From Scytonema hofmannii PCC 7110 (GTDB lineage Bacteria > Cyanobacteriota > Cyanobacteriia > Cyanobacteriales > Nostocaceae), in contig NZ_KQ976354.1 of NCBI RefSeq assembly GCF_000346485.2, positions 5,673,007 to 5,737,006 on the forward strand: DNA of 64,000 nucleotides, in the 5' to 3' direction. The number at the start of each line of letters is the position of its first letter. Within the stretch, counting starts at the first letter, position 1. Under the pieces are notes generated by a model. It worked only from the letters and a program-made list of their open reading frames with translations. It did no database searches and was not told the origin of the DNA. Positions 17,642 through 39,962 of the stretch are shown in pieces. The position numbers were made by a program, and so were the translations under genes.

Positions 17642-20563
17642 TTAAGCCATTTGTCGAGCCATCAACTGGGCAAACAATCCTTCCTGAGAAGTTAATTCCT
17701 CAAAATTGCCTTGTTGTACAACTCGACCACCTTGGAGTACATAAATGCGATGGGCATTGCGAATAGTGCTAAGTCGATGGGCGATCGCTATCCGGGTTAC
17801 TTGTAGCTTTTCTAAACTTTCACTGACAATTGCTTGGGTTTTGTTATCTAAAGCACTAGTAGCCTCATCGAATAGCAAAATTCGGGGTTTCAATGCCAAA
17901 GCGCGAGCAATGAGTAACCTCTGCCGTTGTCCTCCAGAAAGATTGCCACCACCTTCACTAATTACTGTATGCATTTCCATTGGCATGGCTGCAACATCAT
18001 CAGCAAACCCAGACATCCGGGCTGCTTCCCAGGCTTCATCCAAAGTAATTTGAGCACCACCAGCGATATTATCAAAAATGGAAGCTGATGTTAACTGACC
18101 ACCTTGCAAAACAACACCCAATTGACGGCGCACTGCGTCAACATCTAACCCAGACAGGTCTTGACCGTCGTAGTAAATGCTACCAGCTTCTGGAGTTTCA
18201 AATCCCAGCAATAATCGGAATATGGTTGATTTCCCACTGCCAGAGCCTCCTACCAACGCAATAAACTCTCCAGGTTCTGCATAAATACTTACATCATCCA
18301 GCGTCTGCGGTCCATCACTCCGGTAGCGGAAAGTAACACGATCCACAACAATTCTACCGATGAGCTTACCAGGATCGGCTTTGCTCAGATCCACTTCCGG
18401 TATGCTTCCTAGAATTGGCTGGGAGCGTTTCCACTGAGGAATGACTTGCAAAACCTCAGTAACTGTATTGCTCAGGTTTGTGGCTCCCTGAATAAAATTG
18501 CCAAAGGCTGTATTGAAAGCGAGGAAGGTGCCAAGGGATAGTCCGATACCTCCTGAAGTCTGAGCCTCCTCAAGCAAGCTGATGGTAAACCAAAAAAGTA
18601 CTCCAGAAGTCAGTGTCGGCATTACAGTATTGAAAAGTGCAACAATATCTTCAACTTGCTGTGTGCTCAATTCAAGTTTAACTTGCCGACTGTAGTTTTT
18701 ACTCCAACAGGCAAAGGCGCGTTCCTCAGCCCCAGCAATATGCAATTTAGAAATGCCATTAATTAATTGCACCGTTTGTCCAAAAATATTTCCCTGTAAT
18801 TCCAGCAGTGGACGTACTTTACGCAGGAGGAGCATACCAGAGATTGTCGTAACAGCGATCGCGACTATTGCTACAGCAACAGCAACTAGGGCTAATTTGA
18901 AATTGTAGTAAAACAACTGCCCCAAGTAAAATAATGCAAAGAGGCTAGTAATCAGATTTATGAGAGTCCTACCACTGAGTTGGCGACGGATCGTACTAAT
19001 TGAAGATACGCGAGACTGAAGGTCACCTGTTGTGTACTGGCGGAAAAAAGATACTGGTAGGTTCAGCAGTCGATCCCAGACAGCCGCTTGAGTGGAAGCG
19101 TCAGAAGTTGATTCCAAACGCAAGATAGCAAAGCCTTGAGCTAGCTGAAATACAGCTGTGCCTAAAGCAGCAGCCAGCAGCCCTAATCCTACCTGTAGCA
19201 ATAATCCTCTGTCACTATCTGGAATCGCATTGTCCATAAGAATTGCAGTCGCTTGAGGTGTGAGCATCCCCAAAAGCGTGACGGCAATGCCTGTAACTAA
19301 AATGACAAGCAGTTCCTTGCCACGTCCTTTCAGTGCAAACTGGAGTAGCTCCAAAGCTTTGAGAGCTTTATCGGGCAAAGACCGATAAAACATATAAGCG
19401 ATTGGAGCCAACGTTGCGGCTATGCGTTCATCCACCCTCACGCGGGTTTGCTCAATGGGGTCAAAGATTTCATAGGAAGTTGCAGAAACGCTCAGCAGCG
19501 CCACTGGTCGGTTTTCTTCCTGCGTATAAGCAACCATTGGACCGCAATCTTTCTCCCACCAGTTGTCCCGCAACAAAACTCGCCGCATCCGGATGCGCGA
19601 AGCCCGGACAATTGCTTCGAGTGGTTCTTTGACCCGCTTGAGGTTTTCTGAACGAGCGGGAGGGCGGATTTTTACCCCCATAGCTCTTCCCACTGCACCA
19701 GCAGCAACTAACAAAGGTGTACCTTCTAGGAAAAAGTTCCCATCTTGATAATTCAGGGTGGATGCTAGTTCCCCTAGAGCTTCCGCTGTGACTTGACGAT
19801 TAAGACGTTGGCGATCGCGCAGACGCTGTAGTTCTTCTTGGGCTTCCCGTTCATCCAGCAGGTAAATGCAGTGTAGGAGTTGAGTATGAAACTGGGATAG
19901 CCCTGCTTTGATAATATCTGGGTCTCGAATTTCTGAAGTGGTCACAGTAGCAAGCTGAACCCCCTCTACAGCTTCTAACCACATTTTGTCATTGAGGGGA
20001 AAAGTTTGTGCCGCACTTGTCAAAATCAGTTCTTCAAACCCCAAAAAACGGACAAGTCCTTGAGTCAGCTGTACCCAACAAACGACATCTGATTCAGGTT
20101 GGAAAGTCTGACCATTGTTCAAAGAAAATCGTGCTGGTGCAGAAGCCCTCACTGCAATTGCTGGCGTCGCAACATGGGAGAGTGTACTGCCAAGTTGCAA
20201 CAGCCAACTTTCTACCCAAGCGTTAAGCGAAGCTCTGCCGAAGGCAATCGCCGTTGCATCTGCATTACTTAACAGCTGCGAGAAACATTCCTGATGCACT
20301 TGTAGCAGTTGCGTTTCCCCAATCGGTACTGCCAAAATCTGGCGTTGTGGATCAGAAGAATTGACAGATGTTCCAAAAAGTGCTTCACCCTGTTTCATCG
20401 TGCATAGATAACGGCGAGTGCCTTCTATAACACCATCTTTAACTGTAACGGCAAACAACGCCATAGACCCACACTGGATTACCCAAACCTTATCTAGGTC
20501 ATCCAGCAGTATCGGCTCATTGCCCTTAACTATATAAAGTTGCCCTTGTATTACCATAATCAA
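17642..20563 (-). CDS. NHLP-family bacteriocin export ABC transporter, permease/ATPase subunit
   Basis: The protein has 973 residues and fits the NHLM-type second ABC subunit by length and architecture. Residues 1-380 form a regulatory N-terminal part without a C39 peptidase. A six-helix ABC exporter domain follows (LLVILVTGIAVTLLGMLTPQ), then an ATPase domain with GGSGSGKST, LSGGQRQRLLIARAL and FDEATSALD. It probably pairs with the peptidase-bearing transporter directly upstream, 64 bases away, to move NHLP or Nif11 leader peptides across the inner membrane. It is the last gene of the long minus-strand array. Confidence 0.93.
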   Translation of the reverse strand: MIMVIQGQLYIVKGNEPILLDDLDKVWVIQCGSMALFAVTVKDGVIEGTRRYLCTMKQGEALFGTSVNSSDPQRQILAVPIGETQLLQVHQECFSQLLSNADATAIAFGRASLNAWVESWLLQLGSTLSHVATPAIAVRASAPARFSLNNGQTFQPESDVVCWVQLTQGLVRFLGFEELILTSAAQTFPLNDKMWLEAVEGVQLATVTTSEIRDPDIIKAGLSQFHTQLLHCIYLLDEREAQEELQRLRDRQRLNRQVTAEALGELASTLNYQDGNFFLEGTPLLVAAGAVGRAMGVKIRPPARSENLKRVKEPLEAIVRASRIRMRRVLLRDNWWEKDCGPMVAYTQEENRPVALLSVSATSYEIFDPIEQTRVRVDERIAATLAPIAYMFYRSLPDKALKALELLQFALKGRGKELLVILVTGIAVTLLGMLTPQATAILMDNAIPDSDRGLLLQVGLGLLAAALGTAVFQLAQGFAILRLESTSDASTQAAVWDRLLNLPVSFFRQYTTGDLQSRVSSISTIRRQLSGRTLINLITSLFALFYLGQLFYYNFKLALVAVAVAIVAIAVTTISGMLLLRKVRPLLELQGNIFGQTVQLINGISKLHIAGAEERAFACWSKNYSRQVKLELSTQQVEDIVALFNTVMPTLTSGVLFWFTISLLEEAQTSGGIGLSLGTFLAFNTAFGNFIQGATNLSNTVTEVLQVIPQWKRSQPILGSIPEVDLSKADPGKLIGRIVVDRVTFRYRSDGPQTLDDVSIYAEPGEFIALVGGSGSGKSTIFRLLLGFETPEAGSIYYDGQDLSGLDVDAVRRQLGVVLQGGQLTSASIFDNIAGGAQITLDEAWEAARMSGFADDVAAMPMEMHTVISEGGGNLSGGQRQRLLIARALALKPRILLFDEATSALDNKTQAIVSESLEKLQVTRIAIAHRLSTIRNAHRIYVLQGGRVVQQGNFEELTSQEGLFAQLMARQMA

Positions 20564-20627: not shown

Positions 20628-22892
20628 TCACTCCGCCTGTAGCGCTTCACCTTCGGTGCGAATTAACCGCGAGTAAACTCCCTCTACGTGCCACAATTGT
20701 TGGTGAGTGCCTCGTTGTACCACCTTTCCTCGTTCTAGGACAATGATTTCATCACAATCCCGGATGGTGCTTAAGCGGTGTGCCACGATAATGCAAGTGC
20801 ATCCCCGCTGCCGCAGATTCTCGTCAATGATTTTTTCGGTTTCCGCATCCAAGGCGCTAGTAGCTTCATCCATGACGAGTATGGAGGGGTTGTTCACCAA
20901 AGCGCGTGCTATTTCCAGCCGCTGTCGCTGACCTCCACTTAAATTAGCAGCACCTTCTATCAGTTCTCCATCGAACCCACCAGACATAGAAAGAACCACA
21001 TCGGCGATCGCTGCATCCTGACAAGCTCGAATCAAGCTTTTGTCTGGTACCGTAGTATCCCATAAGGTTAAATTATCCCTGACGGTTCCGCCAAATAGCA
21101 GGATATCCTGTTCTACCATTGCAACAGAGTTAGTCAGTACTTGATGCGGAATCTGCTCTCTGGATTTACCATCAAACAAAATTTCTCCCGCCCAAGGTTG
21201 ATAAAGCCCGCTTATCACTTTGGCAACAGTAGATTTGCCAGAACCGCTCCCACCTACCAACGCGACTCGCTGTCCGGGTTGAACGGAGAGGTTTAAGTTT
21301 TCAATCAAGGGGGGTTCTAGGCGGCTATAGCCAAATGTGATGTTGTGCAACTCGACATACCCCTGTAGACGAGGAGACAAGGAAGAATTTGTTCCTTTAT
21401 CTCCCCCTTCTCCCCCTCTCCTGTGCTCTATTATCGGATCGATAGGGTTGTCCAGCACATCATCTAGGCGAATTAAATTGCCCTCCAGTTCTTGAAGAGT
21501 ACTACCGAAGTTGACGAGATTGTTCACAGGTTGCTGAAAACTGTGCATTAAACCTTGAAAGGCTATAAGCATCCCAATACTAAGGTGTCCATCCATCACC
21601 CGCAAACCGCCTACAATCAACAAGAGCATGGACGAGAGGGCTGATAAGAGCATGGGTAATACTGAGAAAATCTGGTTTGTGACACCAAGCTCTTGCTGGG
21701 AATTGATAGCTTTGGTGTAGTAACCTGACCATCGGGAAAAGAAATCTGACTCTAACCCAGATGCCTTGAGTGTTTCTATACTTTGAAGAGCGGCAATGGA
21801 AGCACCAGCAGCTTTGCCATACTCTTGTATCAGTCGCTGATTGGCGTCTACCCGTTGTCGGGAAATCCACTGTAATGTTAACACATTTATGGCAGCAAAA
21901 CTAACTACAATTAAGCTCAGTACCCAGTCATACTGAAGCATGACTAGGGCGTAAAAAATTACCATTACCGTGTCGATGCCTGTAGTTGCCAACTTTCCGG
22001 AAAGGACATCAGCAACTTCGTCGTTAAGAGTGGTGCGATTGCTAATTTCTCCGGCAAAGCGTTGCGCGTAAAAACCAACAGGTAAACGCAGGATGTGCCA
22101 GAGAAAGCGACTGGACATTCCGACAGACAACTTGATTTTCAAGCGACGCAGGTACCGTAACCGCAGTAATGTTAGCGACCCCTGGAGTACGGCTGCGATC
22201 GCCATTCCCAAAAGCAGTGGACGCAGCCAGTGCTGTCGTTGCTGCACCAAAATGTCGTCTACAAACACTTGGCTAAATATGGGTACCGCCAGCCCGACAA
22301 GAGTTAATAAAAAACCCGCAATTAGGCAGTAAACTAAAGCACCAGCAGCACCGTGTAGCCGTTCCCACAGCGCTGTTAACATACTGGGTTTGCGACCACC
22401 TTTGGTGAACTCAGTACCTGGTTCCATGACCAGCACCACTCCAGTATACCCCTCGTCAAATTCCTGTTGGGATATAGTACGCGGTCCAGTGGCGGGGTCA
22501 TTGAGATAAACGCGTTCTTTGCTAAATCCCTCCACTACCAGGAAGTGGTTGAAGTTCCAGAACACAATATAAGGAGGACGCAGGTCTTGCAGTTGCTGTA
22601 GTTCTTTTTTAAAACCTTTCGCTTGGAGTCCGTAGCTTCTGGCAGCTTTGAGCACATTAGACGCCTTGCTGCCATCGCGGGAAACTCCACACTCTCGACG
22701 CAGTTCTGGCAGTGGTACAATCCGACGGTAGTAACCTAAAATAATTCCTAACGCAGCAGCACCACATTCCACAGCCTCCATTTGTAAGAGAGTGGGAGTC
22801 TTTACGCGTCGCCTGCCTCTATTATTAATCAATGTTTGCAGGTGCCGCAAAAGATGAATCGGTGTTTCTAAAGTTGGATTAGTAGATACCAC
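20628..22892 (-). CDS. NHLP-family bacteriocin export ABC transporter with C39 leader peptidase
   Basis: The protein has 754 residues. The N-terminal C39 cysteine peptidase has Cys43 in QMEAVECGAAALG, His116 in NFNHFLVVEG and Asp132 in YLNDPATG. It cuts leaders after double glycine. A six-helix exporter domain and an ATPase domain follow, with GGSGSGKST, LSGGQRQRLEIARAL and MDEATSALD. All RiPP precursors nearby end their leader in GG (one remnant has DG), matching this peptidase. The gene overlaps the HlyD gene by 14 bases, so translation is probably coupled. Confidence 0.95.
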   Translation of the reverse strand: MVSTNPTLETPIHLLRHLQTLINNRGRRRVKTPTLLQMEAVECGAAALGIILGYYRRIVPLPELRRECGVSRDGSKASNVLKAARSYGLQAKGFKKELQQLQDLRPPYIVFWNFNHFLVVEGFSKERVYLNDPATGPRTISQQEFDEGYTGVVLVMEPGTEFTKGGRKPSMLTALWERLHGAAGALVYCLIAGFLLTLVGLAVPIFSQVFVDDILVQQRQHWLRPLLLGMAIAAVLQGSLTLLRLRYLRRLKIKLSVGMSSRFLWHILRLPVGFYAQRFAGEISNRTTLNDEVADVLSGKLATTGIDTVMVIFYALVMLQYDWVLSLIVVSFAAINVLTLQWISRQRVDANQRLIQEYGKAAGASIAALQSIETLKASGLESDFFSRWSGYYTKAINSQQELGVTNQIFSVLPMLLSALSSMLLLIVGGLRVMDGHLSIGMLIAFQGLMHSFQQPVNNLVNFGSTLQELEGNLIRLDDVLDNPIDPIIEHRRGGEGGDKGTNSSLSPRLQGYVELHNITFGYSRLEPPLIENLNLSVQPGQRVALVGGSGSGKSTVAKVISGLYQPWAGEILFDGKSREQIPHQVLTNSVAMVEQDILLFGGTVRDNLTLWDTTVPDKSLIRACQDAAIADVVLSMSGGFDGELIEGAANLSGGQRQRLEIARALVNNPSILVMDEATSALDAETEKIIDENLRQRGCTCIIVAHRLSTIRDCDEIIVLERGKVVQRGTHQQLWHVEGVYSRLIRTEGEALQAE

Positions 22893-24321
22893 TGAAAGAC
22901 CTCAAAATAGGTAAAACGAAGGTGATAGGAGCGCGTTCATCCACCTGAACTCGAACAACAGTGGTAGTTCCAGGAGAGATTTTTAAGTGCGGTCCAGTGG
23001 AAGAAGACCACTTGTAGCCACTGAAGGTGGAATCCGTCTGTAGCTCAGCGAAGACTTGCATTAGACCTTCCTGTTTTTGAGATATCAGACCTTCTACCAC
23101 TTCTGGATTGCCCACCTCATTAGCGGCTGCCTCTTTTGTAATAGGAAACCGTGAGATACTGGTTACAGTACCCACAATGCCGCCAAAGCGTTCTCGTTTG
23201 ACAGTTTGGGGGGTAATTTGGATTGCCATACCCGACTGAATTTTCTTGCCTTCCGCAACCGGAAAATAGGTGACGCCAACCAGCTTGTTGGATGGATTCT
23301 CCGCCTCCACGGTTGCCAAGCGGGTTCCCGCATTGACGACTTGCCCAGGCGTAACAGTGAGTTCGAGAATGCGTCCGTTATGTTGGCTGATAATCTGGCT
23401 GTTATTGCTGAGTTGTTGTTCGAGTTTGGCAATCTCGCGCGTAACTTCTTGAATTTCGTTTTTCCGGACTGTTAAAGTTTGTAGGTCTTGTTGAGCTAGA
23501 TTGGCTTCTTTACTTTCCTGTTCTTGCAACTGGGCTTGGATATTTTTGATTTCGTTCAGGTTCGAGAGGTATTGCTGTTGTGCATCTGCTTCTTTAACAT
23601 CAAGTTGCTTCAACTGAGCTTCAGCTTCATCAATGTTTACGCGGGCATCGTCATATTGCTGCCGCGCTTGTAGCACCGTATCATCGGCAACCGCTCCCTG
23701 TTTAAATAGCATCTGGCGATTGTCCAATCTCTTCTTGTAAGTAGGAAGCAGCCCCCGGAGTATTTGCAAGCGTTGTTGTAAGTTCTGACGCTCGCGCTGG
23801 ATTGACATCAGCCCTTTCTCCCTCAAAATAGGTGTCAAATCCTGCACGATCTTTAGTTTTTGCTTAAGAGACAGGCGTTGTTCTTGGATTGCTTTTCTGT
23901 CAAGTTGTTGACGTTGCACTTGGAGCGAGCTAGCGTTACGATCTTGCTCTTCTAGTTGGACTAGTTTGGCGCGTACTAATTGTAGCTGCTTGCGTAAATC
24001 AACTTGGTCAATTGTCGCTAGCACCTGCCCCTTTTTAACAACATCCCCAACTTTGACATCAAGAGCAAGTAATTGCCCTGCGCTTTTCGATTGCAGTGGC
24101 ACAACTTTGCGGGGGTAAATGACTACCCCTCGACCCTCGACAGTGATGGGGATGCGTCCGTAAATACTCCAAACGATAGCAACTGCTACCAGAGAACCTA
24201 AGGCGGTTAGAGGTAGCCAGCTTTTAGGACTAACCACCTGCATGAGTTGGTCTAGTCTTTCAGGGGAAGATAAACGTTCAATTGATTCTTTTCTAAATAA
24301 ACTGCGCTTTTGGTCTAACAT
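22879..24321 (-). CDS. HlyD-type membrane fusion protein of the NHLP export system
   Basis: The protein has 480 residues. One membrane helix lies near residues 38-55 (LTALGSLVAVAIVWSIYG). A lipoyl half follows (LLALDVKVGDVVKKGQVLAT), then a long coiled-coil hairpin from about residue 110 to 310, the second lipoyl half (ILELTVTPGQVVNAGTRLAT) and a beta-barrel end (ISPGTTTVVRVQVDERAPIT). It should bridge the ABC transporters to the outer membrane. A cyanobacterial TolC must be encoded elsewhere. Confidence 0.93.
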   Translation of the reverse strand: MLDQKRSLFRKESIERLSSPERLDQLMQVVSPKSWLPLTALGSLVAVAIVWSIYGRIPITVEGRGVVIYPRKVVPLQSKSAGQLLALDVKVGDVVKKGQVLATIDQVDLRKQLQLVRAKLVQLEEQDRNASSLQVQRQQLDRKAIQEQRLSLKQKLKIVQDLTPILREKGLMSIQRERQNLQQRLQILRGLLPTYKKRLDNRQMLFKQGAVADDTVLQARQQYDDARVNIDEAEAQLKQLDVKEADAQQQYLSNLNEIKNIQAQLQEQESKEANLAQQDLQTLTVRKNEIQEVTREIAKLEQQLSNNSQIISQHNGRILELTVTPGQVVNAGTRLATVEAENPSNKLVGVTYFPVAEGKKIQSGMAIQITPQTVKRERFGGIVGTVTSISRFPITKEAAANEVGNPEVVEGLISQKQEGLMQVFAELQTDSTFSGYKWSSSTGPHLKISPGTTTVVRVQVDERAPITFVLPILRSFSGIY

Positions 24322-24409: not shown

Positions 24410-25504
24410 TCAACTTACTTTTAGGCGTCCCTGCATCCAATCAAATCTTTTTCCAGCCAGCGCCATACGATCTAAAACACTGACATCCAGTTCATCCTCA
24501 TATTCAACATTTTCATCTAATGGCTGACCTTTGCTATAAACCCGCCTACCATAACCAAGGCTGCTAAGCATTCCTTGCAATCTATGTGAAAGCAAAGTTG
24601 CAATCACTCGATAAAAGCGGGATGCAAAACCGATATCTTGCAGTAATTTTGCTGCTAATTGCTGGCGCGAAATCGACAACACAAATGAGTCTTCAAGAGT
24701 TTTGACCGTTGCAGAGGGTAAACGACCATCGATAAAGGGTGTTTCTCCCACGATTTCGCCTTTCGATAATCTCGCTATCTCGAAACCAGAAAAATCATCA
24801 CCCTCTATAGCTGCAAAAGCACGAGCCAAGGGATTGCGCGAGTCACCAGAAACAGACAGAGACATTGTTCCACCAAGTAGAATATACAGCGCATCCACAA
24901 CTCCTCTTTCATTGATGAGTACGGTGTGAGCAGGAATTCTTTGCTGAGTTCCACAACCCACGATCCAGTCAATGTCACTGTCATGCAATTCGCTCAAAAT
25001 AAACAGCACGTCCCTTAGGGGTTGACTTTGAGCAAAGTTGCTACGACCAAACCGATTGATAATGCTTTGCAGTCTGTCTGAGAATAAAATAGCGATCGCC
25101 CGATAAAAGCGTGAAGCAAAACCTACATCTTGTTGTAATTTTGCTGCCAAATGCTGTTGGGGAATTGACATCACCAGGGACTTTTCAGTAGCCTTAACCG
25201 TAGTGGCGGACGGACGGACACCTACAAAAGGGATTTCTCCCACGACCTCACCACTGGATAACCTAGCAATCTCCCGTCCTGAAGTTTCACTACCCTCTAT
25301 GGCTGCAAAAGCACGAGCCAGAGGATTGTTGTCAGTACTTGAGACGCTAACTGTTAAATTTCCATCTAGTAGGATATGCAGACTATCGGCAGCTTTTCCT
25401 GGGTGAAGGAGTACAGTGTTGGCAGGTATTTCTCGCTGACGCCCTGTAGCAATCATCCAATCGATGTCGCTATTACTCAATTCTTGTAGGAGAACTTCTG
25501 TCAT
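24410..25504 (-). CDS. protein with two cyclic-nucleotide-binding-type domains
   Basis: The protein has 364 residues, built by internal duplication. Each half has the cNMP-binding beta-roll (PANTVLLHPGKAADSLHILL and PAHTVLINERGVVDALYILL), the GEVVGEIPFVG or GEIVGETPFID turn, and a helix ending in QLAAKLLQDIGFASRFYRVI. No DNA-binding or catalytic domain follows. Genes of this type accompany NHLP exporters. It may act as a sensor or adaptor for the transporter. The two halves share the oddly conserved NPLARAFAAIEG loop, which replaces the usual part of the phosphate cassette, so nucleotide binding is uncertain. Confidence 0.85.
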   Translation of the reverse strand: MTEVLLQELSNSDIDWMIATGRQREIPANTVLLHPGKAADSLHILLDGNLTVSVSSTDNNPLARAFAAIEGSETSGREIARLSSGEVVGEIPFVGVRPSATTVKATEKSLVMSIPQQHLAAKLQQDVGFASRFYRAIAILFSDRLQSIINRFGRSNFAQSQPLRDVLFILSELHDSDIDWIVGCGTQQRIPAHTVLINERGVVDALYILLGGTMSLSVSGDSRNPLARAFAAIEGDDFSGFEIARLSKGEIVGETPFIDGRLPSATVKTLEDSFVLSISRQQLAAKLLQDIGFASRFYRVIATLLSHRLQGMLSSLGYGRRVYSKGQPLDENVEYEDELDVSVLDRMALAGKRFDWMQGRLKVS

Positions 25505-25636: not shown

Positions 25637-25816
25637 GTAGGGTGGGCATTGCTAACTATCTCTCCTCTTACCTCTGCGTACTCTGCGTCTCTGCGGTTAA
25701 ATAAATTACTTTTAAACCGCAGAGGCGCAGAGAGCACAGAGAGAGAAGATAAGGAATTGCCGCCTGAATCAAAATTTTATGAGTTATCTTGACAGGGCTA
25801 GCATTGCCCACCCTAC
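25637..25816. repeat. palindromic mobile repeat overlapping a stop codon
   Basis: The ends GTAGGGTGGGCATTGCTA (25637-25654) and its inverted copy at 25799-25816 enclose a CTGCGTACTCTGCGTCTCTG hairpin. The right part is close to the element at 17354-17542 (CCTGAATCAAAATTTTATGA). The right end overlaps the stop codon TAG of the protease-like gene at 25813. Together with the degenerate CTGATGGACGCGGAT repeats at 25540, it fills the 308-base gap from 25505. Confidence 0.75.
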
Positions 25817-26964
25817 GCCTCCTTAATAAGGGTCTTTTGGATACGTGAGGAGGCCTCAACAGAAGCCAATTCTTCCAATGTCAAATGAGTCAGTGCCATC
25901 AACATAAAGGTTTGACCATTAACGGTTCTTAACTCGTCTGCATACTCAGCATCAAAGCGCTCTAAATTTTCTGCGGCAGCTTTCACTAACGTCTGTAGAA
26001 TCTTAAAAGCGCCATCGGAAAGTGGGGGCTGACCCCGGTAGTTTTCCAGCCTACCTCCTTTTCGGTAATTGGGAAACGACTCCAACCCCACAAAGCGCAA
26101 GAACCAATCGGCTCGATAGTGTCCTGTAGCGGCGACAATGCCTCTGTAGTCGGCAATGAGTTCGTCGAGCATATTGTTTCGCATTGAGTTAAACAAGCGA
26201 TGTGTGAAGTAGTGGGTACATTCATGTTCTAGCCGAAGGATTAGGGATAGGCGCTGCCATTCGGGTTCTTCTAGTCCCACGTCCTTGGCAGAAACGTTGC
26301 TATAGGGACCGTCACTCAAAATAATGAACCGATCCTGATAAAGCTCCTTTTGTGAGATTAAGCGTTTAAACTCTTCTGCCCAACTACTTTCGGAGCAATT
26401 GCCGGGATTTTGAGTTTTCCATTGTTGCCGATAGGAGCGAATCCTGTCCCAGTTGTTGTACCCGCCGACTATGCATGCTCCCATAGAAGCAGGGACTGGT
26501 AGTGGTTCATGCCGCATGGTGAGCGCCTGTACCAGAGAAACAAAGTCCTCTCGATTTGGGGCAACCAAAACCGGGATGGCTCCTGCTACGCTTTGATGTA
26601 CGATCGCCTGGAGTTTCTCAGGTTGTTTCAAGACTAAACCAGTCGCCTCTGGTATGCCATCCACTGGAACGCCCTTACGGGTAGCAGCGCGATATGCCTC
26701 ACTTTGGCTGATACCTTCGAGTATGGGAAACCGGAACTGCACAAGCCGTTGCTTGAGTGCTTCAAATGCTCCGTCAATTGCTGCAACAGCATACTCCTGC
26801 CAAGCTGCCACATGGGCTTCAGGTGCAAGTGGAAATTTAACGGGATGGGTAAACGTGTTGCGATGAAAGACGTTTTGATTGTAAGCCAGTAGTTCCTCTA
26901 CCTCTTTTGCGCTGGCTGCGAAACTGGCAAGGACACTAGCGCGGAATGATTCTTGAGCAAGCAT
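25813..26964 (-). CDS. putative zinc metalloprotease of the RiPP locus (HExxH)
   Basis: The protein has 383 residues and no signal peptide. It carries HECTH at residues 247-251, followed by MLDELIADYRG, where Glu268 and Asp272 give the ExxxD spacing of gluzincins. His247, His251 and Glu268 would bind zinc. The N-terminal 240 residues match no fold I recognise (FPILEGISQSEAYRAATRKG, VGGYNNWDRIRSY). I know of no assigned function. Its place between exporter genes and the modification genes suggests leader trimming, peptide proofreading or self-protection. The stop codon is supplied by a mobile repeat. Confidence 0.65.
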   Translation of the reverse strand: MLAQESFRASVLASFAASAKEVEELLAYNQNVFHRNTFTHPVKFPLAPEAHVAAWQEYAVAAIDGAFEALKQRLVQFRFPILEGISQSEAYRAATRKGVPVDGIPEATGLVLKQPEKLQAIVHQSVAGAIPVLVAPNREDFVSLVQALTMRHEPLPVPASMGACIVGGYNNWDRIRSYRQQWKTQNPGNCSESSWAEEFKRLISQKELYQDRFIILSDGPYSNVSAKDVGLEEPEWQRLSLILRLEHECTHYFTHRLFNSMRNNMLDELIADYRGIVAATGHYRADWFLRFVGLESFPNYRKGGRLENYRGQPPLSDGAFKILQTLVKAAAENLERFDAEYADELRTVNGQTFMLMALTHLTLEELASVEASSRIQKTLIKEA

Positions 26965-27020: not shown

Positions 27021-27071
27021 TACAACTAACAACTATCAACTATTAACTATCAACTAACAACTAACAACCAA
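27021..27071. repeat. AACTAAC/AACTATC short repeats running into a gene
   Basis: About seven units of CAACTAA, CAACTAT or TAACTAT. The right part encodes the last codons (LVVSC and stop) of the ATPase gene at 27054-27839, so repeat growth has shaped that C-terminus. Confidence 0.7.
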
Positions 27072-27839
27072 CCCACAAATCTCGTCAACAATCCCTTTCA
27101 CAGTCTGACTTATGGGATGTTCAGAATAACTTAGGCAGAAGATACCTTTGCTGGCTAATTGTACCATTTCTTCAGACAGGGGCAAAATACCAGCCACAGG
27201 GACGTTATAAGTTGTCTCAACTTGTTGCCGTAAGTCGGCAAAATCGAAGGCTGATAACACCTTATTAACCACTAGCAGCATTTTGGGTACTTTGAGCTTT
27301 CGAGCTACATCCACTGTTACAGCAGTACCTTGGAAGTCTTGGTGATCTGGACGTAGAATGACGATTAGAACATGAGATATCCCGATGGAAAGTAAAGTTT
27401 CTTCATTAAGACCGGGGTGCGTATCAATTAACAAGTAGTCTAGGTTCAGACAGCGAATGAGTTCTTGAAAACCATCGTTGAGCCGGACTACGTCATACCC
27501 CTCGCGCAGAACTCTAGCGATTTCACTAGCCTTAATACTAGAGGGAATCAGGTAAAGGTTACCTTTTAGCGTACTTATTTCCCCCTGTGTCATGAGAATA
27601 TGACTTACGTCATGAGCAGTGTCTTTAATATCACAGCGTCCCCACAGGTAGTCATTGAGGGAGTAGTTCATGTTTTCCTCGTTGAGACCGAAAAGAACGT
27701 GAACTCCTGGTGACTGAATGTCAGTATCAACAATACCTACTCGTTGTCCCTGACGCACCATAGTAGCAGCAACGTTAGCAATCAAGTTTGATTTGCCAGT
27801 ACCACCACGGAAAGAATGAACAGCTATAATTTGTGCCAT
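27054..27839 (-). CDS. ParA/MinD-family ATPase
   Basis: The protein has 261 residues. The deviant Walker A is SFRGGTGKS at residues 9-17, in which Arg11 replaces the usual signature lysine of KGGxGKT. Walker A' is VGIVDTDIQSPG, and the switch is LLIDTHPGLNEET. The C-terminal half has VLIVILRPDHQDFQGT and LLVVNKV. No partner such as ParB or MinC is nearby. Similar MinD-like genes occur in some cyanobacterial bacteriocin loci, where they may position or energise the secretion apparatus, but this is inference. A dimer-dependent ATPase with arginine at the signature position would be unusual. Confidence 0.85.
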   Translation of the reverse strand: MAQIIAVHSFRGGTGKSNLIANVAATMVRQGQRVGIVDTDIQSPGVHVLFGLNEENMNYSLNDYLWGRCDIKDTAHDVSHILMTQGEISTLKGNLYLIPSSIKASEIARVLREGYDVVRLNDGFQELIRCLNLDYLLIDTHPGLNEETLLSIGISHVLIVILRPDHQDFQGTAVTVDVARKLKVPKMLLVVNKVLSAFDFADLRQQVETTYNVPVAGILPLSEEMVQLASKGIFCLSYSEHPISQTVKGIVDEICGLVVSC

Positions 27840-27998: not shown

Positions 27999-30629
27999 CT
28001 ATCCACTAACCACTAACTCTCCATCTTTGGGAAATGTCAACTTTAACCAGCACGAGTCGCTAAAAAGAGGTAGCAAAACTCGTCCGGTGGATAGTTTCAA
28101 GTCAAACTGTATATTCTTGTTTCCACTCTCGACTTCTATAAATGCAGGTAAACTCTTTGAGTCTCCGTTGAAGTTGCTACTGTGTGCCCATACTCTCAGT
28201 TCTTCTTCTCGCTTAGTTGTTAAGCGGAAGATGGCATAACGCAACGTCTTTAGGGATGGAATTTCCACACTAGCAGCTTGGTGGTATTGTTCACCCTCAG
28301 CATATCCCAGGTATACCTCTGCCATTTTTGGTTGTCCGCTAGCAGTGATAGTGAAGACGGATCGTCCTCCTAAGTGCTGCTCTTTTCGCAACTCTACTAC
28401 CACGCGGGAAGCGAAGGCTCCATAGCGCTTCATGACAAGGGTTGCTCCTAGCGATAGCAAGGCGATGCACAATGCGCTGATACGTGCCACAGGATTCGAC
28501 CAGATGAACAAACCGTGGACGAACAAAATGGCTAAAAAGAGGCTGTAGATACCAACGCTGAAAAACGGATGGTTAAGAATTTTCAAGACAACTCCCGGCA
28601 CCAACTCGCCCTTGCGTCGGCTGGAAAACAACAGTAAAACTGGGAAAATACCACCAACCAAGGAGTTACCTAGAACACCAGCAAAGGCAAGTATACTAGT
28701 AAACGATTGTACACCAGTCAGGAAAAGCCACTCAGTCAGCAGGAAGACTAGCACTAACGGGCTGATGGATAGAAGGAAGCGACGTTGGTTGAGCAGGGTT
28801 GTCCAGAATCGTTGCGCCCTTGTTGGCATATTGACATTATCAACAGTAGTATTGCGGACATCTGCCTTTAACCTTCCTTCATAGGCTATGAGCATTGGTG
28901 AAGTGACTTGTAAGCACACACTATCTTGGTTTGCCGAACGTACCTCTAAAGTTAGGTGAATGTCCCACTTGTGGAGGTCTGCAAACTGATCGAGTACCTC
29001 TTTAATCTCCCAACGCTCTGTCACTGTTATCTCTGTATGACGGATTTTGCCACTCGATTGAACATCTAGGCGAAACCTTGGCGCTTGTTCTTCCAGTCCT
29101 AGGTAGGTTAAACCAATATGGGGAACACGACTGCGATCGCCACATGGGTGTAATATCAATGTTCCTTGTTGTCTAGGCAACATCAAGACGGGTTGAGGTC
29201 GGATAGGTAACCACTCCCTAGCTAGGTTAAGCAGAAGACTCGAACTACGGAGCCAAGCCATTCCCAAGAGGAGTGTGACTAAAACTGCTCCCAATACTGA
29301 GACAATGGGACCGACTTGAAGCGCTAGTGGCTCCAAGGCAGTGCCTGACTGTCCAGCTAGCAACTCCGGTGAAATAGCTCCGTTGACAGCCAACACCCAG
29401 ATGCAAAAAAGAACAGTTAAAAAAGCAGTTCCCGCTACACTACCCCAAATCAGTGATGAAGCACTTGGGTCGCGTGGGAGTATGACCTTAGCGCATTCTC
29501 CCACATAGACATGCCCAAAGTAAAGCATGAGGCTAACACCAAGTACTTGCTGTAGCATCCAAGGTTGGAAAGGATGACCATTGAGGAAAGGCAAGTTGAG
29601 ATAAAAAAGGTTGTCCAATTGCAGATGGCTCAAGGCAAAAATTGAGAGAATCAGGAGCAAACTCACGTTGATTGCTGCAAGAGATACCATTACGGCAACG
29701 GTAAAATTTAGGGATTTACGCGATCGCAAGTACAACCCGGCAAAGAAAAGTAACACTGCCCACAGTGCTGGGCTGATGTGGGTGAAGTTTGCTAGAGTTG
29801 TTGACAAACCGATGTAACAAGCTAAAGCTATGAGAAAAACACGGATGCCTACAGCTAGAGAAAGTATAAAGGAGCCAGTATTTCCTAAGTAATTGGATAC
29901 TAATTGTTTGATAAAAGGATTACCATAACGGAAGTCACCACTACGACCAACAGCCTCAGCCATACAAGCCATAGTTAGTATGTTAATGATGCCGATGATG
30001 ACTAAAAAAGCAACAGTAGCCAGAGGACCAATATCGGCGACAGCAATGGGCAAGGCTAAGAAGGCTTGGGGCAAACCCAAAGCAACTGTAATCAAGCAGG
30101 CGAGCCAGAAGGGTGGCAAAGACTCTAGCCGTTGGGCTAGAGCAGATAAATTCCAGCGCAATTGTTCGGTTATGGGTAGCGTAGATGCAAATATTTTTAC
30201 TACTTGTCTTTTGTATAGGCGGGAATAAGCCACCTGTACCGCTTTCTCATCCAAACCCAAAGCTGCCCGGATATTAGGCACTGCCTGGTATGTGAAAGTG
30301 TACTTCTCGCCCAGAGCGTGGACAACAGCGGCTTTAAGTTTAGTGTTTTCCGGCACTAAGGGTGTCCATTCCGAGGCATAGCGTTCTAGATGCTGGATGG
30401 TGGGGTGGAGTGGAGGCGCATTTCCTAAGGCAAAGGCTTCCAAAAAAGCCAAGTCGCGCTCTGACGCAGTTTGTTCTGTGAGGGCAAACTCCACCCGCGA
30501 TCGCGCTACTATCTGCGCTGTCCGACTCTCAATCAAAAACAGCAAAGTATTTGCTCGTCTAGCTGGAAAACCCGCTAGCACCTCCTCACGCGAGATAAGT
30601 TCGTCGTCATCAGATGTCATATTTATCAC
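27999..30629 (-). CDS. amino-acid-permease-like membrane protein with extra soluble domains
   Basis: The protein has 876 residues. The N-terminal 170 residues are soluble and helical. Residues 175-470 carry about eleven hydrophobic helices resembling the aromatic amino acid (Trp/Tyr) permease branch of the APC superfamily (FWLACLITVALGLPQAFLAL, AEAVGRSGDFRYGNPF, YFGHVYVGECAKVILPRDPS). A soluble insert follows from about 480 to 620, then four more helices (FLLSISPLVLVFLLTEWLFL), and a C-terminal beta-rich domain. This composite is not a normal transporter. It may sense or move a substrate linked to peptide production or immunity. It lies between the ATPase and cache genes on the same strand. 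Confidence 0.7.
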   Translation of the reverse strand: MINMTSDDDELISREEVLAGFPARRANTLLFLIESRTAQIVARSRVEFALTEQTASERDLAFLEAFALGNAPPLHPTIQHLERYASEWTPLVPENTKLKAAVVHALGEKYTFTYQAVPNIRAALGLDEKAVQVAYSRLYKRQVVKIFASTLPITEQLRWNLSALAQRLESLPPFWLACLITVALGLPQAFLALPIAVADIGPLATVAFLVIIGIINILTMACMAEAVGRSGDFRYGNPFIKQLVSNYLGNTGSFILSLAVGIRVFLIALACYIGLSTTLANFTHISPALWAVLLFFAGLYLRSRKSLNFTVAVMVSLAAINVSLLLILSIFALSHLQLDNLFYLNLPFLNGHPFQPWMLQQVLGVSLMLYFGHVYVGECAKVILPRDPSASSLIWGSVAGTAFLTVLFCIWVLAVNGAISPELLAGQSGTALEPLALQVGPIVSVLGAVLVTLLLGMAWLRSSSLLLNLAREWLPIRPQPVLMLPRQQGTLILHPCGDRSRVPHIGLTYLGLEEQAPRFRLDVQSSGKIRHTEITVTERWEIKEVLDQFADLHKWDIHLTLEVRSANQDSVCLQVTSPMLIAYEGRLKADVRNTTVDNVNMPTRAQRFWTTLLNQRRFLLSISPLVLVFLLTEWLFLTGVQSFTSILAFAGVLGNSLVGGIFPVLLLFSSRRKGELVPGVVLKILNHPFFSVGIYSLFLAILFVHGLFIWSNPVARISALCIALLSLGATLVMKRYGAFASRVVVELRKEQHLGGRSVFTITASGQPKMAEVYLGYAEGEQYHQAASVEIPSLKTLRYAIFRLTTKREEELRVWAHSSNFNGDSKSLPAFIEVESGNKNIQFDLKLSTGRVLLPLFSDSCWLKLTFPKDGELVVSG

Positions 30630-30760: not shown

Positions 30761-32170
30761 TTAGTAACTTGTACGCTCTTTAAGGGATTGCACCTTGCTA
30801 TGCAATCGCTGGAAGTACTCTGTCTCAGTCTCACCTGAGCTTACGGTTTGCTGTTTCAGCTTTTGTATCTTTTTTTGTAACTGTTTAAAGTGTTCGTTCT
30901 CAGTAATTTCCGCAACTTGATTGACTCTTTTAGTTTCGTCTATCTCAATTCGCAGGGCGGTTACCTGCTGTTTTAGGTTTTGCTCTCTAGTTTTAACTTC
31001 ACGAGCCATGTGTAAAAAAATACGCACAAGTTGACCCATGTCGTCATGAGTGCGAGACACAACAGCCAATTCTTGAGGATTGAAATCCCCTTGTTCCAGT
31101 GCTTGTGCTGCGGTTGTGAGGGCGCGAATTGGTCTGGAAATAGTCCGTGCTAAGAACAATGCTATGATTGCCGTCATTCCCCCTACAACTAGCACAATAC
31201 TGCCGTGTTGCCAGATTAGGCGATTCAAGGGAGCGGTAAACTGTGCTTTGGGTTGGTTGACTCCTAAAACCCAAGGTTGCTCTTTCAAAGGTGCAAAGCC
31301 AACTATCTGGGGCATTTGTGCAAGTCTCAAGCGATAGCTGGTGTGTCCCGGATCGTTGGCTCCCACCATTACCGCTAACTCTGGAATGTTTAAGCTCTCG
31401 ATCTGCTTAAGACCATAGCGTCTGTCGGTTTCGACCTGCTTTCGCGTTTCTGGCGGCAAGGGGTTGAGGCTATGATAAAGTAGGGATTGGTCGGGATGAC
31501 TGATAATCACCCCGTACTGGTCAACAAGGAAGGCATAACTCTGGGAGCCATGCAATTCATTAACAATTTCCCAGATATCTTCTCCCTTAATCTTGAATAC
31601 CGCCACTCCCACAATTTTGCCCTTTTCAGATTGCACCGGGTGCGAGAGGAACAGTCCTGGTCGTCCGGTCGTTTGACCTACCAAGATGGTAGAGACGTAG
31701 GATTTTCCTTGGATTGCCTGTTGGAAGTATTCCCGATAGTTATATTTATTACCAACGAATTTTGGTTCGGTGGAAGCGACACATTTACCTTGTGTGTCCA
31801 TGAGAAAGATAGCATCAAAGTCTGGGTTAGAGTGGGAGATGTTTTCCAGTGTCTGCTGCATCGACAGACGGAAGGCTTTTTGCTTTCCAGGAGCGTTGGA
31901 AGTGAGGAAACTTACCACATTGCGATCGCTGCTAACTTGGACTAAAACGCGATGAATATCAATAATCAGTTGGTCTAGGCGACTAGCAGTACTGGTAGCT
32001 TGTAATTCTAGTTTGCGGTATTCGCCAGCTTCTAGGCTATCTAAGCTCTGTCGCAGGTTGTAGTAGGCGGTGAAGCTCATCGGTATAATTGCAACTGAGA
32101 GCAATGCCGCCGAAAGTTTGGCGGCGATCGACCAGGCGGGTGGGTAAAGTAACCGATGTGTAAGCTTCAT
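30761..32170 (-). CDS. double-cache and HAMP membrane sensor without output domain
   Basis: The protein has 469 residues. Membrane helix 1 lies near residues 18-38. A periplasmic double-cache domain runs to about 315 (FDAIFLMDTQGKCVASTEPK, YNYREYFQQAIQGKSYVSTI, SQSYAFLVDQYGVIISHPD). Helix 2 is near 325-345 (SIVLVVGGMTAIIALFLART), then a HAMP domain (ISRPIRALTTAAQALEQGDF) and a coiled coil to the end. There is no kinase, cyclase or methyl-accepting part. It could drive a partner through the coiled coil, for example the downstream permease-like protein or the histidine kinase at 50 kb. A decayed second copy of part of this gene lies at 41296-41490. Confidence 0.85.
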   Translation of the reverse strand: MKLTHRLLYPPAWSIAAKLSAALLSVAIIPMSFTAYYNLRQSLDSLEAGEYRKLELQATSTASRLDQLIIDIHRVLVQVSSDRNVVSFLTSNAPGKQKAFRLSMQQTLENISHSNPDFDAIFLMDTQGKCVASTEPKFVGNKYNYREYFQQAIQGKSYVSTILVGQTTGRPGLFLSHPVQSEKGKIVGVAVFKIKGEDIWEIVNELHGSQSYAFLVDQYGVIISHPDQSLLYHSLNPLPPETRKQVETDRRYGLKQIESLNIPELAVMVGANDPGHTSYRLRLAQMPQIVGFAPLKEQPWVLGVNQPKAQFTAPLNRLIWQHGSIVLVVGGMTAIIALFLARTISRPIRALTTAAQALEQGDFNPQELAVVSRTHDDMGQLVRIFLHMAREVKTREQNLKQQVTALRIEIDETKRVNQVAEITENEHFKQLQKKIQKLKQQTVSSGETETEYFQRLHSKVQSLKERTSY

Positions 32171-32213: not shown

Positions 32214-32441
32214 TCAACCCCAGAGGGTAGCAGTAATCTCTGCCATATCCAGGGCTTGTTTCGCCTTAATCAGAATCCTCAAAAAAGCTTGTTGATTCTG
32301 CCAAGCAGAGCGAGGTAAAAGGGGAGACGGAGAATCCAATTGACCTTCAGAAACACTTTTCGACCACTCTTGATGCTCGGTGTTCTCAGAATCGACTGAG
32401 TTGTTCTCTGGAACTGAGAATTCACCAGTTGTTTCGTTCAC
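32214..32441 (-). CDS. 75-residue protein downstream of the radical SAM gene
   Basis: The start is five bases after the radical SAM stop, so translation is probably coupled. The N-terminal 45 residues are acidic and disordered. The C-terminal part, SAWQNQQAFLRILIKAKQAL followed by DMAEITATLW, is a single amphipathic helix. It has no leader or GG site, so it is unlikely to be a precursor. Spliceotide clusters such as the Pleurocapsa plp locus carry a small essential partner protein (PlpY) beside the radical SAM enzyme. Size and position fit that role, but I cannot show homology. Confidence 0.55.
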   Translation of the reverse strand: MNETTGEFSVPENNSVDSENTEHQEWSKSVSEGQLDSPSPLLPRSAWQNQQAFLRILIKAKQALDMAEITATLWG

Positions 32442-32446
32442 AGTAT

Positions 32447-33709
32447 TTATCTTGCTAAGGAGTAAGTGTATTCAGGTTCTTCTTGCCAACTGTTTGACCA
32501 TTGAATGCGGTCAGCAGTAAAATGAAGTGGATCGTCGAGAGGCCAAGGAGCGTCAAGTGGCTCCTCAATCAAGGCAAACTCACCGTTATCAAAAGGAAGT
32601 CCTTGCGCCCTTACTTTAGGGTAAACACGCTCTCGTATGCCATGCTTCGCTTGCTCTAGAGCGCGGTGATGGCAGTAAGGATTGTTACCTCTGCGATTGA
32701 AAAAGACGTGAGCCGTCCAAGTGCAGCCTCCACGGCATAGCTCAGCAAACTTGCAGGTCTTGCAGAATCCCCACAAATGTTCCGTCCCTTGGGGAGTATC
32801 GGCACCGAGGTTAAACCGCAGCTCTTCTGTTTGTTCAATAATTTCACGTAGAGAGCGCTCTCTAATGTTACCACCAGTATATGCTGCCGTGGGTAATGAA
32901 GGACAGCCTTTAATTGCACCATCCGCTTCCAGACCCAGCGTGGATAATCCGGCACCGCAACCCTGCCAAAATGTCCATTCATTACCTCCCCCACGTAGCA
33001 ACCGTTCATAAGGACCGTAGTAACCGATGTTATTACCAGCACGTACCTTGACTCCTTCACGGTTGGCTCGTTGGGTAACACGGGCAAGCATGGGGTAGAT
33101 ATCTAATAGTTCGGATGGTTGGAGCAGGATGTCTGCGTTATCTGCTGCGTTGCCCATAGGAACAGTCAGCTGGATTTGCCATGCACACGCGCCAGCATCA
33201 CGGATATGCTCGTAGATAAGCGGGAATTCCGGAGCAGACAGGCGGTTGATCTGGGTATTGCAACCGAAGGGAATACCAACTTCCTTGAGGTAGCCCATAG
33301 TTCTCAATCCGGACTTCCAAGAGCCTTTTCGACCACGCAGGTGGTCATGAGTCGCCTCCATTCCATCCGTTGAGACGGAAACCATAGAAATTCCTGCTTC
33401 CTTCATCCGGCGTGCCATGTCTAGTGAGATGCCATAGCCGCCGGTAGTCATGCCGCAGAGCATACCTGCCTGAGTAATAGCTTTAGCAATCTCCAGCCAG
33501 TCCGGACGCAAAAACGCTTCTCCTCCAATGAGAGTCACTTCCTTGATGCCAACTTCGGCTAACTGTTGAACAAGGTCAAGCGCTTCTTCTGTTGAGAGTT
33601 CTTTTGTACGAGCTTGACCTGCTCGTGAACCACAGTGGCTGCAAGCGAGGTTGCACTTGAGGGTAATTTCCCAAACAGCATAACTGATTCGTTGGTACTC
33701 TTTAGACAT
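32447..33709 (-). CDS. radical SAM/SPASM peptide-modifying enzyme (candidate splicease)
   Basis: The protein has 420 residues. The iron-sulphur cluster motif CxxxCxxC is at Cys19, Cys23 and Cys26 (LKCNLACSHCGSRAG). The GGE motif is LIGGEAFLRPDW. The SPASM region has WQGCGAGLSTLGLEADGAIK, GCPSL, then FCKTCKFAELCRGGCTW and NPYCHH, giving enough cysteines for auxiliary clusters. The gene sits 23 bases downstream of two Nif11-leader precursors and 5 bases upstream of a 75-residue protein. The precursor cores carry XYG motifs and no cysteine, so I predict excision of tyramine from XYG to leave a keto-beta-amino acid, as by PlpX. Epimerisation is the main alternative. Confidence 0.75.
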   Translation of the reverse strand: MSKEYQRISYAVWEITLKCNLACSHCGSRAGQARTKELSTEEALDLVQQLAEVGIKEVTLIGGEAFLRPDWLEIAKAITQAGMLCGMTTGGYGISLDMARRMKEAGISMVSVSTDGMEATHDHLRGRKGSWKSGLRTMGYLKEVGIPFGCNTQINRLSAPEFPLIYEHIRDAGACAWQIQLTVPMGNAADNADILLQPSELLDIYPMLARVTQRANREGVKVRAGNNIGYYGPYERLLRGGGNEWTFWQGCGAGLSTLGLEADGAIKGCPSLPTAAYTGGNIRERSLREIIEQTEELRFNLGADTPQGTEHLWGFCKTCKFAELCRGGCTWTAHVFFNRRGNNPYCHHRALEQAKHGIRERVYPKVRAQGLPFDNGEFALIEEPLDAPWPLDDPLHFTADRIQWSNSWQEEPEYTYSLAR

Positions 33710-33732
33710 TGTTTCACCCTGCTTAAAAGGTT

Positions 33733-34026
33733 CTAAAGTCTTGGTCCGCCGTAGAAAGGATACACAATTGGCCGTTTCGGTAGCTTGCCTAAGAGCACTG
33801 ACGCTCCACCGCTAACTGCTGTTAGTTCTGCGTCGCTGAGTTCTTCATCAGATGACTCTGAGATTTGAGTCATGGCGGCTTCCCATTCTTCTGGGGTAAA
33901 GTTATAGCCAGCAGCTAGTACAATTTCTCGGCGTTCATCATCACTGACAGCATTTTGGTATTGAGTTTTGAATGCTTCATCGGTAACAATCCTTTCGTAA
34001 AAGGCTCTTGCGCTTTCAATAGACAT
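33733..34026 (-). CDS. Nif11-leader RiPP precursor B (core with FYG motif)
   Basis: The precursor has 97 residues. The Nif11-type leader is MSIESARAFYERIVTDEAFK, AAGYNFTPEEWEAAM, ELSDAELTAVSGG, with cleavage after Gly74. The 23-residue core begins ASVLLGKLPKR and ends VYPFYGGPRL. It has no cysteine and one serine, so lanthionine formation is not possible. Phe91-Tyr92-Gly93 is an XYG splice-type motif. AGGAGG lies a few bases upstream of the ATG. It is the nearest precursor to the radical SAM gene. Confidence 0.9.
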   Translation of the reverse strand: MSIESARAFYERIVTDEAFKTQYQNAVSDDERREIVLAAGYNFTPEEWEAAMTQISESSDEELSDAELTAVSGGASVLLGKLPKRPIVYPFYGGPRL

Positions 34027-34098
34027 ACATTCCTCCTGTGAAATTTAAGTGATGTAAGTTAATACTTGACGTACAACCGTTTTAAGACCAGAGGCAAG

Positions 34099-34392
34099 TT
34101 ATAGTTTTGGTTTTGGCCAACGAAGGTTGGGCGGTAGAATAACACCATATGCAGCAACAGGCAAAATACCACCAGCGATCGCCTCTAGCTGAGCATCGTT
34201 GAGTTCTGTGTTAGCTTCAGATGCTTCTAAAATATCAGCGGTAGCAGCTTCCCATTCTTCTGGAGTGAAATCGTATCCGGCTGCTTGTATGATTGCTGTG
34301 CGTCCCTCACTGGCAGTATTCTGGAGTTGAGTTCGGAATGCTTCATCTGTAGTTATTCTTTGATAGAAGGCGTTTGCGCTTTCAATGGACAT
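34099..34392 (-). CDS. Nif11-leader RiPP precursor A (core with AYG motif)
   Basis: The precursor has 97 residues. The leader is close to that of precursor B (MSIESANAFYQRITTDEAFR, AAGYDFTPEEWEAA, LNDAQLEAIAGG), with cleavage after Gly75. The 22-residue core begins ILPVAAYGVILPP and ends RWPKPKL. It has no Cys, Ser or Thr. The Ala81-Tyr82-Gly83 motif in a hydrophobic, proline-flanked setting fits known spliceotide substrates. It is the first gene of the operon and has the shared upstream motif 47 bases before its ATG. Confidence 0.9.
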   Translation of the reverse strand: MSIESANAFYQRITTDEAFRTQLQNTASEGRTAIIQAAGYDFTPEEWEAATADILEASEANTELNDAQLEAIAGGILPVAAYGVILPPNLRWPKPKL

Positions 34393-39600: not shown

Positions 39601-39962
39601 CAACTCAAACAACGGTACACTTCTGCCGCACCCTTTTCTAAGGTTTCAACAGAAATCAAAGCAGAGGCTTTAATACCTTCATTTAAAGTTTTCACCCACG
39701 GTGGTAAATTCTGCTCATCAGCCATGTGAACAGAACCAAGCACACGGCGCACAGTGTCTAAGGTAAGACCATCCCAAGCAAGTCGCTTCTCGAATTTCTC
39801 CTGGTCTCCCTTAGCGACAATCTGACACCACTTTTCAAGCCTGGATGGAACGATATCATCGAATTCTAGAGCATCATTAGGCAAGAACCCAGTTCCAAGG
39901 CGTTCGGTAATTGTGCTGGCTCGCTCTACGATGTTAACCAGCTCTTTTTTAGAAAATTCCAT
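36678..39962 (-). CDS. lanM: class II lanthipeptide synthetase LanM (copy 1)
   Basis: The protein has 1094 residues. The N-terminal dehydratase domain (DUF4135 type) spans about residues 150-600, with GRSVIAVVFASGLKLIYKPR and LLKANDCHFENLISCGEHPV. The C-terminal cyclase domain, about 740-1090, has FSHGAAGIAYALLRLY, SWCHGAPGIGMVRLGG near 960 and RLCCGNFGRIELLL near 1007. The last is a CCG motif, in which cysteine replaces the usual zinc-binding histidine. This is seen in ProcM-like synthetases that accept many substrates. It would dehydrate Ser/Thr and form thioether rings in NHLP precursors such as 40327-40653. Confidence 0.95.
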   Translation of the reverse strand: MEFSKKELVNIVERASTITERLGTGFLPNDALEFDDIVPSRLEKWCQIVAKGDQEKFEKRLAWDGLTLDTVRRVLGSVHMADEQNLPPWVKTLNEGIKASALISVETLEKGAAEVYRCLSCQEPVPFEEVFLPFIHIAKQKLIVRTGDKYHLLSEEAQATLERSLLGLLAGYSSPILELNFSTFRASKQSPLLRLLGQFESSHSKEQYQAFIKYMLKGGGLLSFFQQYPVLARLVATVTDFWVDAIGEFLLRLASDWSEIQRTFQTEAELSQVVTIYPSLSDPHNNGRSVIAVVFASGLKLIYKPRDLGLEEGYFKLLAWINQQGISLPFKLLRTINHSTYGWVEFVESLPCQDKQEVQRYYQRAGMLLCVLYLLKANDCHFENLISCGEHPVLVDMETLMHHQVRETADSGKYAQAQLLADRQLFKDSVLRSNFLPQWLFGPDGRKVFTLSGLGGADGEQETSYHVLKWRNINTDNMSLSYEFAKIPSRANVPPLKGVTLLPNDYVEELVDGFQQMYQFLVKHREALLVSDSPLTALNHQQVRFVFRATQVYGSILCNSLQPEWLRDGVERSIKLDLLSRAFLSSDSKPLLWSLLKVELQAMEQMDIPYFVAYSDSAALSIGSSQTIEQCFTEPTYSAVNSRLQQLSDKDLAQQIIIIRGSLYSSITSELSDTLPYSNAYLNFDAVAPLSQKQMVEQAVAIAQDLKRSAICAADGSATWIGLGYMPLADRFQLQPIGDGLYDGRCGVALFLAALEAVTGGIGFRDLALEALQPLRRVLQTSDLKYQQKFAEQTGIGGAMGLGSIIYALVRISQFLGEPALVEDAKQAAHLMKPEAIGTDQHFDVMGGSAGAILGLLALHNLTAEPAFLEQATICGNHLLKNRVASDTGSRTWLSLDGKLLTGFSHGAAGIAYALLRLYDTTQDSVFLKAAKEAIAYEHSVFSPEAGNWPDLRFEKPSFKTSWCHGAPGIGMVRLGGVSVLDTCQIRHEIEVALKTTLQVNLQGVDRLCCGNFGRIELLLIAAQQLSRPELIETAQKQAAWVVTRAEQAGSFYLFPNLHKDIYNPGFFLGTSGIGYELLRLAYPNLLPSVLLWQ

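Follow-up and report, generated by a model that had tools for sequence, protein, structure and literature searches.

The minus strand of a 64,000-nucleotide stretch of the Scytonema hofmannii PCC 7110 genome (the window) carries two Nif11-leader precursor genes, a radical SAM gene and a 75-residue reading frame in close succession, and the question raised by this locus is what the radical SAM enzyme does to the precursor cores. A model is available in the PlpXY reaction, in which tyramine is lost at an XYG motif of the substrate and the backbone is reconnected (PMC10533398, PMC11002830). PlpX has been assigned to IPR026482 and its reaction with PlpY has been reviewed (PMC11002830), and protease inhibition is named as the activity of spliceotides (PMC11117315). 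We consider it very likely that the locus is a plp-type spliceotide cassette, composed of two precursors, a PlpX orthologue and a PlpY homologue, with splicing at X-Tyr-Gly. Its features, together with those of the downstream genes, are listed in Table 1.

Table 1 Features of the predicted splicease cassette and of the genes downstream of it (window positions)
Feature	Position	Strand	Description
Precursor 1	34099..34392	-	97 aa; Nif11 leader of 75 aa ending AGG, then core ILPVAAYGVILPPNLRWPKPKL
Precursor 2	33733..34026	-	97 aa; Nif11 leader of 74 aa ending SGG, then core ASVLLGKLPKRPIVYPFYGGPRL
PlpX-type radical SAM/SPASM splicease (predicted)	32447..33709	-	420 aa; assigned from TIGR04103, tree and Cys columns
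PlpY homologue	32214..32441	-	75 aa; GTG start, five bases past the stop of the enzyme gene
dCache/HAMP membrane sensor-like protein	30761..32170	-	PF02743, PF00672; 44% to plp counterpart; conserved beside the cassette at plp-type loci
876-aa multi-pass membrane protein	27999..30629	-	No Pfam hit; conserved across most of the plp-type clade
ParA/MinD-type ATPase, plp-type module	27054..27839	-	69% to plp
DUF7005 protein, plp-type module	25813..26964	-	PF22541 3.3e-176; 62% to plp
cNMP-binding domain protein, plp-type module	24410..25504	-	PF00027; 51% to plp
HlyD-type membrane fusion protein of exporter	22879..24321	-	64% to plp
C39 peptidase-ABC exporter	20628..22892	-	PF03412 5.6e-35; AVECGAAAL around the likely active-site Cys; 75% to plp counterpart
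Second ABC transporter adjoining exporter	17642..20563	-	973 aa; 64% to plp counterpart

The four cassette genes are separated by 72, 23 and 5 bases in the order precursor 1, precursor 2, radical SAM gene and 75-residue frame. Terminator-like sites on the minus strand were all located inside genes, with none between the cassette genes, and a promoter consensus scan of the window predicted promoters no more frequently than in shuffles. Both leaders were recognized as Nif11 (TIGR03798 1.6e-20 and PF07862 8.4e-16 for precursor 1; TIGR03798 2.1e-20, with PF07862 also matched, for precursor 2), and the cores that follow the GG, of 22 and 23 residues, respectively, contain no cysteine and a single XYG each. 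The mark of such substrates, an X-Tyr-Gly site in a core that follows a Nif11 or nitrile hydratase-type leader, is present as AYG and FYG, the predicted splice sites being A81-Y82-G83 in precursor 1 (AAYGV, Tyr82) and F91-Y92-G93 in precursor 2 (PFYGG, Tyr92). Orthologous cores read ALYGL and PKYGG for precursor 1 and PLYGR and PLYGA for precursor 2. Within the window, one YG per core is weak evidence and not striking, because shuffled versions of the two cores contained a YG 4% and 25% of the time.

To anchor the comparison with the prototype, the codons of the PlpA3 core AVAAMYGVVF, which was inferred from a published engineered tag (GGAVAAGYGVVFP) and the name of the M5G mutant (PMC10533398), were searched in 391 genomes of the order, and one genome (7.4 Mb) matched. 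The locus found there (L087) also encodes a core ending FPIRPLYGLPI, which matches the published PlpA2 tag, and next to it an epimerase and a radical SAM protein of 419 residues. By content L087 is the plp locus, an identification that rests on the precursor cores.

Scored against TIGR04103, the radical SAM protein of the window reached 858.8 bits (cut-off 725) and PlpX itself 824.4 bits, while the second-best NCBIfam family for the window protein stayed below threshold (411.8 against a cut-off of 591.75). The two enzymes are 77.2% identical over full length (419 aa). A SPASM domain match was present, and the CxxxCxxC motif at C19/C23/C26 and nine further cysteines were invariant, so that 12 of the 13 cysteines of the window enzyme are cysteine in all 28 spliceases compared. 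The protein thus carries the marks of the PlpX family, IPR026482, which we take to be the same as TIGR04103, including the SPASM cysteines. A maximum-likelihood tree was built from 28 TIGR04103 proteins and four PoyD/PlpD-type epimerases, leaving out four partial radical SAM fragments whose long branches had distorted a version including them. The window enzyme grouped with those of L007 and L008 (99/96) and next with L009, L010 and L012 (97/99); the wider group of window, L007-L012 and PlpX was only modestly supported (83/90).

Homologues of the 75-residue protein were sought with our own HMM, built from four short segments, which found a PlpY-like open-reading frame in all 82 records holding a TIGR04103 gene (one record is a copy of the window); the four short loci surrounding other radical SAM genes gave no match. 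The small partner lies directly downstream at every splicease locus and carries the motif LLPRSAWxxQxxFLRxxxKAKQALDxxE, in which L42, P43, R44, W47, K61 and L64 (window numbering) are invariant in the alignment and common to the PlpY of the plp locus. AlphaFold predicted a disordered N-terminus and one C-terminal helix at residues 44-74 (block pLDDT 80-96), which agrees with the published view that PlpY lacks the size for a complete RRE fold (PMC12710340). A sequence search found no solved structures of PlpX or PlpY. The preliminary description, which had read the locus as a splicease cassette with Nif11 leaders, is borne out in this core by the TIGR04103 match, the tree and the PlpY homologue. 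Its two precursors with GG sites and Cys-free cores of 22 and 23 residues bearing AAYGV and PFYGG were exact in position and sequence, and the radical SAM/SPASM gene lies where it had been placed, followed after five bases by the 75-residue gene. The naming of these two genes as PlpX-type enzyme and PlpY partner also held, the former by passing the TIGR04103 cut-off and, in the comparison with PlpX and epimerases that had been proposed as a check, by its place with PlpX, the latter by homology in the HMM search and the alignment.

Evidence of a different kind came from the cores of related loci. Splicease and PlpY homologue were paired at 79 of 79 related cyanobacterial loci and at a second locus of the Scytonema genome, and these loci, together with the window and plp, yielded 126 distinct Nif11 cores. 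A YG was present in 122 of them, compared with 22.1 on average and at most 37 in 1000 shuffling runs, and 207 of the 320 core tyrosines were followed by glycine (shuffle mean 23.5). The core sequences are related, and these figures are not independent probabilities, but the conservation of YG across homologous loci is far beyond chance. At the 207 sites, X was L in 92, M in 58, I in 17, A in 12 and V in eight, others being rarer. KYG occurred twice and FYG once, in the window, and glycine stood at +1 of the site in seven of 207. The splicease might accept precursor 2 poorly, because its FYG is found once in 207 sites and the glycine at +1 is likewise uncommon.

Other readings of the radical SAM enzyme have to be set against these data. 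A peptide epimerase of the PoyD/OspD type, making D-residues, comes to mind since epimerases in related clusters also act on Nif11 or NHLP precursors and plp itself holds PlpD, but this reading has next to no chance of being correct. PlpD and an epimerase of the Scytonema genome matched TIGR04517 as their sole NCBIfam family, whereas the window enzyme matched TIGR04103 and TIGR04517 was absent among the best 25 families listed for it; the SPASM match and the separation of spliceases from PoyD/PlpD epimerases in the tree, at 100/100 support, refute an epimerase as far as sequence can. Highly improbable, too, is a thioether-forming enzyme of the sacti- or ranthipeptide kind, or another crosslinking SPASM enzyme. 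The modelled fold is nearest to the sactipeptide enzyme SkfB and next to PqqE (Foldseek, phmmer), but with a mean pLDDT of 68 the AlphaFold model is only moderate, and the PDB structures closest to it, those of SkfB, PqqE and anSME, indicate no more than a SPASM-type radical SAM enzyme. Both cores lack the cysteine that would serve as thioether donor, their conserved feature being YG, and the sactipeptide models scored far below their curated cut-offs (StsB 91.8 of 625; SkfB 86.5 of 300). Class II lanthipeptide cores, offering Ser/Thr and Cys to a LanM, were also considered for the precursors and rejected, as both Nif11 cores are Cys-free and the nearby LanM have NHLP precursors of their own.

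The cassette might also be a plp orthologue that is partly a relic, with one or both precursors no longer processed and FYG a decaying site. The uniqueness of FYG among the 207 sites would fit this, as would a sibling locus in the same genome where a PlpA-like leader is truncated, coreless and without a splicease. We regard such decay as very unlikely, given that precursors, enzyme and partner are all intact, that every invariant cysteine is retained and that YG persists in cores that are otherwise diverging.

A plp-type spliceotide cassette is our preferred reading, and the comparison with its closest relatives bears on how its cores change. Between the window and L007 or L008, leaders are 81-96% identical and cores 50-61%, with YG retained throughout; the enzymes are 97-98% identical, and X is A and F in the window, K and L in L007 and L in both cores of L008. 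We tentatively propose, as a possibility rather than an expectation, that X is being diversified next to a splicease that hardly changes, and that the plp-type clade makes P1-swapping ketoamide protease inhibitors of which FYG and KYG are rare natural members. The cassette type is patchy yet common in cyanobacteria: a TIGR04103 gene above cut-off was present in five of 80 genomes drawn from the order, the Scytonema genome included, and a pattern scan of the genome collection returned 270 relatives. At two loci of Calothrix (MO_167.B12, L083; MO_192.B10, L081), four tandem Nif11 precursors, each with at least one XYG, accompany a single splicease, an arrangement that suggests combinatorial product sets.

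With the exception of the 876-aa protein gene, the genes downstream of the cassette recur at plp in unchanged order, and among the related loci the export module is common only to L007-L012 and plp. Because the module is collinear with the cassette in the window and common to these loci, the exporter, as judged from gene order, belongs with the splicease cassette and the LanM genes are accessory neighbours. The earlier view of the cassette as embedded in a lanthipeptide locus and using its C39 exporter needs correcting, as the C39, HlyD and ABC genes are collinear with the cassette and recur at plp, where examination of 28 kb turned up no LanM. We read the locus as a plp-type spliceotide cluster with two LanM beside it, because the downstream gene order matches plp.

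The LanM lanthipeptide synthetases (36678-39962 and 41480-44752) adjoin the cassette and, with their own NHLP-leader precursors bearing Cys-containing cores (40327-40653, 45152-45538 and 45768-46148), lie on the opposite side of it from the export module; L007 and L008 have LanM as well. On either side of the LanM region lies a subtilase-like protease (34544-36463 and 46559-47818) whose C-terminal end resembles a PEP-CTERM anchor. We considered whether the first of these, adjacent to the cassette (34544-36463), is linked to it and dropped the idea, as no homologue was within reach at L007-L012 or plp; a homologue was found at one other locus only (L019, 34%). Further along (48877-49494), a 205-aa protein combines a pair of NHLP-type leader repeats with a tail free of Cys, IAFPILRQSQPYIFGLQQFSPT, and has homologues at L009, L010 and L012 of the plp-type clade. 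No epimerase was found in the window. Two PoyD-type epimerases are encoded at 3.12 Mb of the same genome. They belong to a sibling RiPP locus (G000:C1:3109000-3147500; L097, L098) that also holds a LanM, several NHLP precursors and the plp-type export module in a second copy, and it is here that the truncated, coreless PlpA-like Nif11 leader lies (L098:10106-10243), with the splicease absent.

Taken with the PlpXY chemistry, these data allow a route to be proposed. The Nif11 leader would be recognized and the cores presented to the PlpX orthologue and the helical PlpY homologue, upon which the radical SAM enzyme would abstract hydrogen, a tyramine equivalent (C8H9NO, about 135.07 Da) would be cut from X-Tyr-Gly and the backbone rejoined. 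X would thereby become an alpha-keto-beta-amino residue, keto-beta-Ala in precursor 1 and of the keto-beta-Phe type in precursor 2. Splicing by the cassette is the step that we infer strongly, by orthology with PlpXY; cleavage, export and protease inhibition are put forward with less confidence. Cutting after GG and export of the cores probably fall to the C39 exporter encoded downstream, which would release a 22-mer and a 23-mer with predicted spliced monoisotopic masses of 2319.42 and 2405.43, respectively. The ketoamide may then trap proteases, with X setting the specificity.

The basic chemistry and the cluster type have already been described, and the value of this locus lies in an intact close orthologue of the prototype splicease with the uncommon sites AYG and FYG, which lends itself to tests of substrate scope. 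The FYG site merits follow-up, as does the way X changes from one close relative to the next; this species comparison suggests the testable idea that X is exchanged to aim a protease inhibitor. Further uses could include keto-beta-amino peptide libraries and protein labelling tags.

Among known systems, the PoyD/PlpD/OspD-type epimerases (TIGR04517) are likewise radical SAM enzymes from the same kinds of RiPP cluster, but belong to another family and a separate clade. The second splicease locus of the Scytonema genome (L002/L088; cassette at G000:C1:9481505-9485743) resembles the window in its TIGR04103 enzyme (808.8 bits), PlpY homologue and Nif11 precursor, and differs in a long core with three sites (PLYGV, PMYGI and PMYGV); no plp-type export module was recognized in the 18 kb examined there. 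Tolypothrix campylonemoides VB511288 (L007) and Brasilonema sp. UFV-L1 (L008) share the nearly identical splicease, the gene order and a nearby LanM, and differ from the window in their X residues and in having one LanM within reach rather than two. The described plp cluster of Pleurocapsa sp. PCC 7319 (PlpA2/A3, PlpX, PlpY) has the same layout of two upstream Nif11 precursors with one XYG each, a radical SAM enzyme 77% identical over full length and a PlpY-type helix partner directly downstream, followed by the order Cache, ParA, DUF7005, cNMP, HlyD, C39 and ABC, with a response regulator in common. Unlike plp, the window has no PlpD epimerase, carries a pair each of LanM genes and subtilases next to the cassette, has an additional membrane protein of 876 aa separating Cache from ParA, and shows the sites AYG and FYG in place of LYG and MYG. 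On its sequence, the cassette is a close relative and an orthologue of the Pleurocapsa prototype and not a new kind of system.
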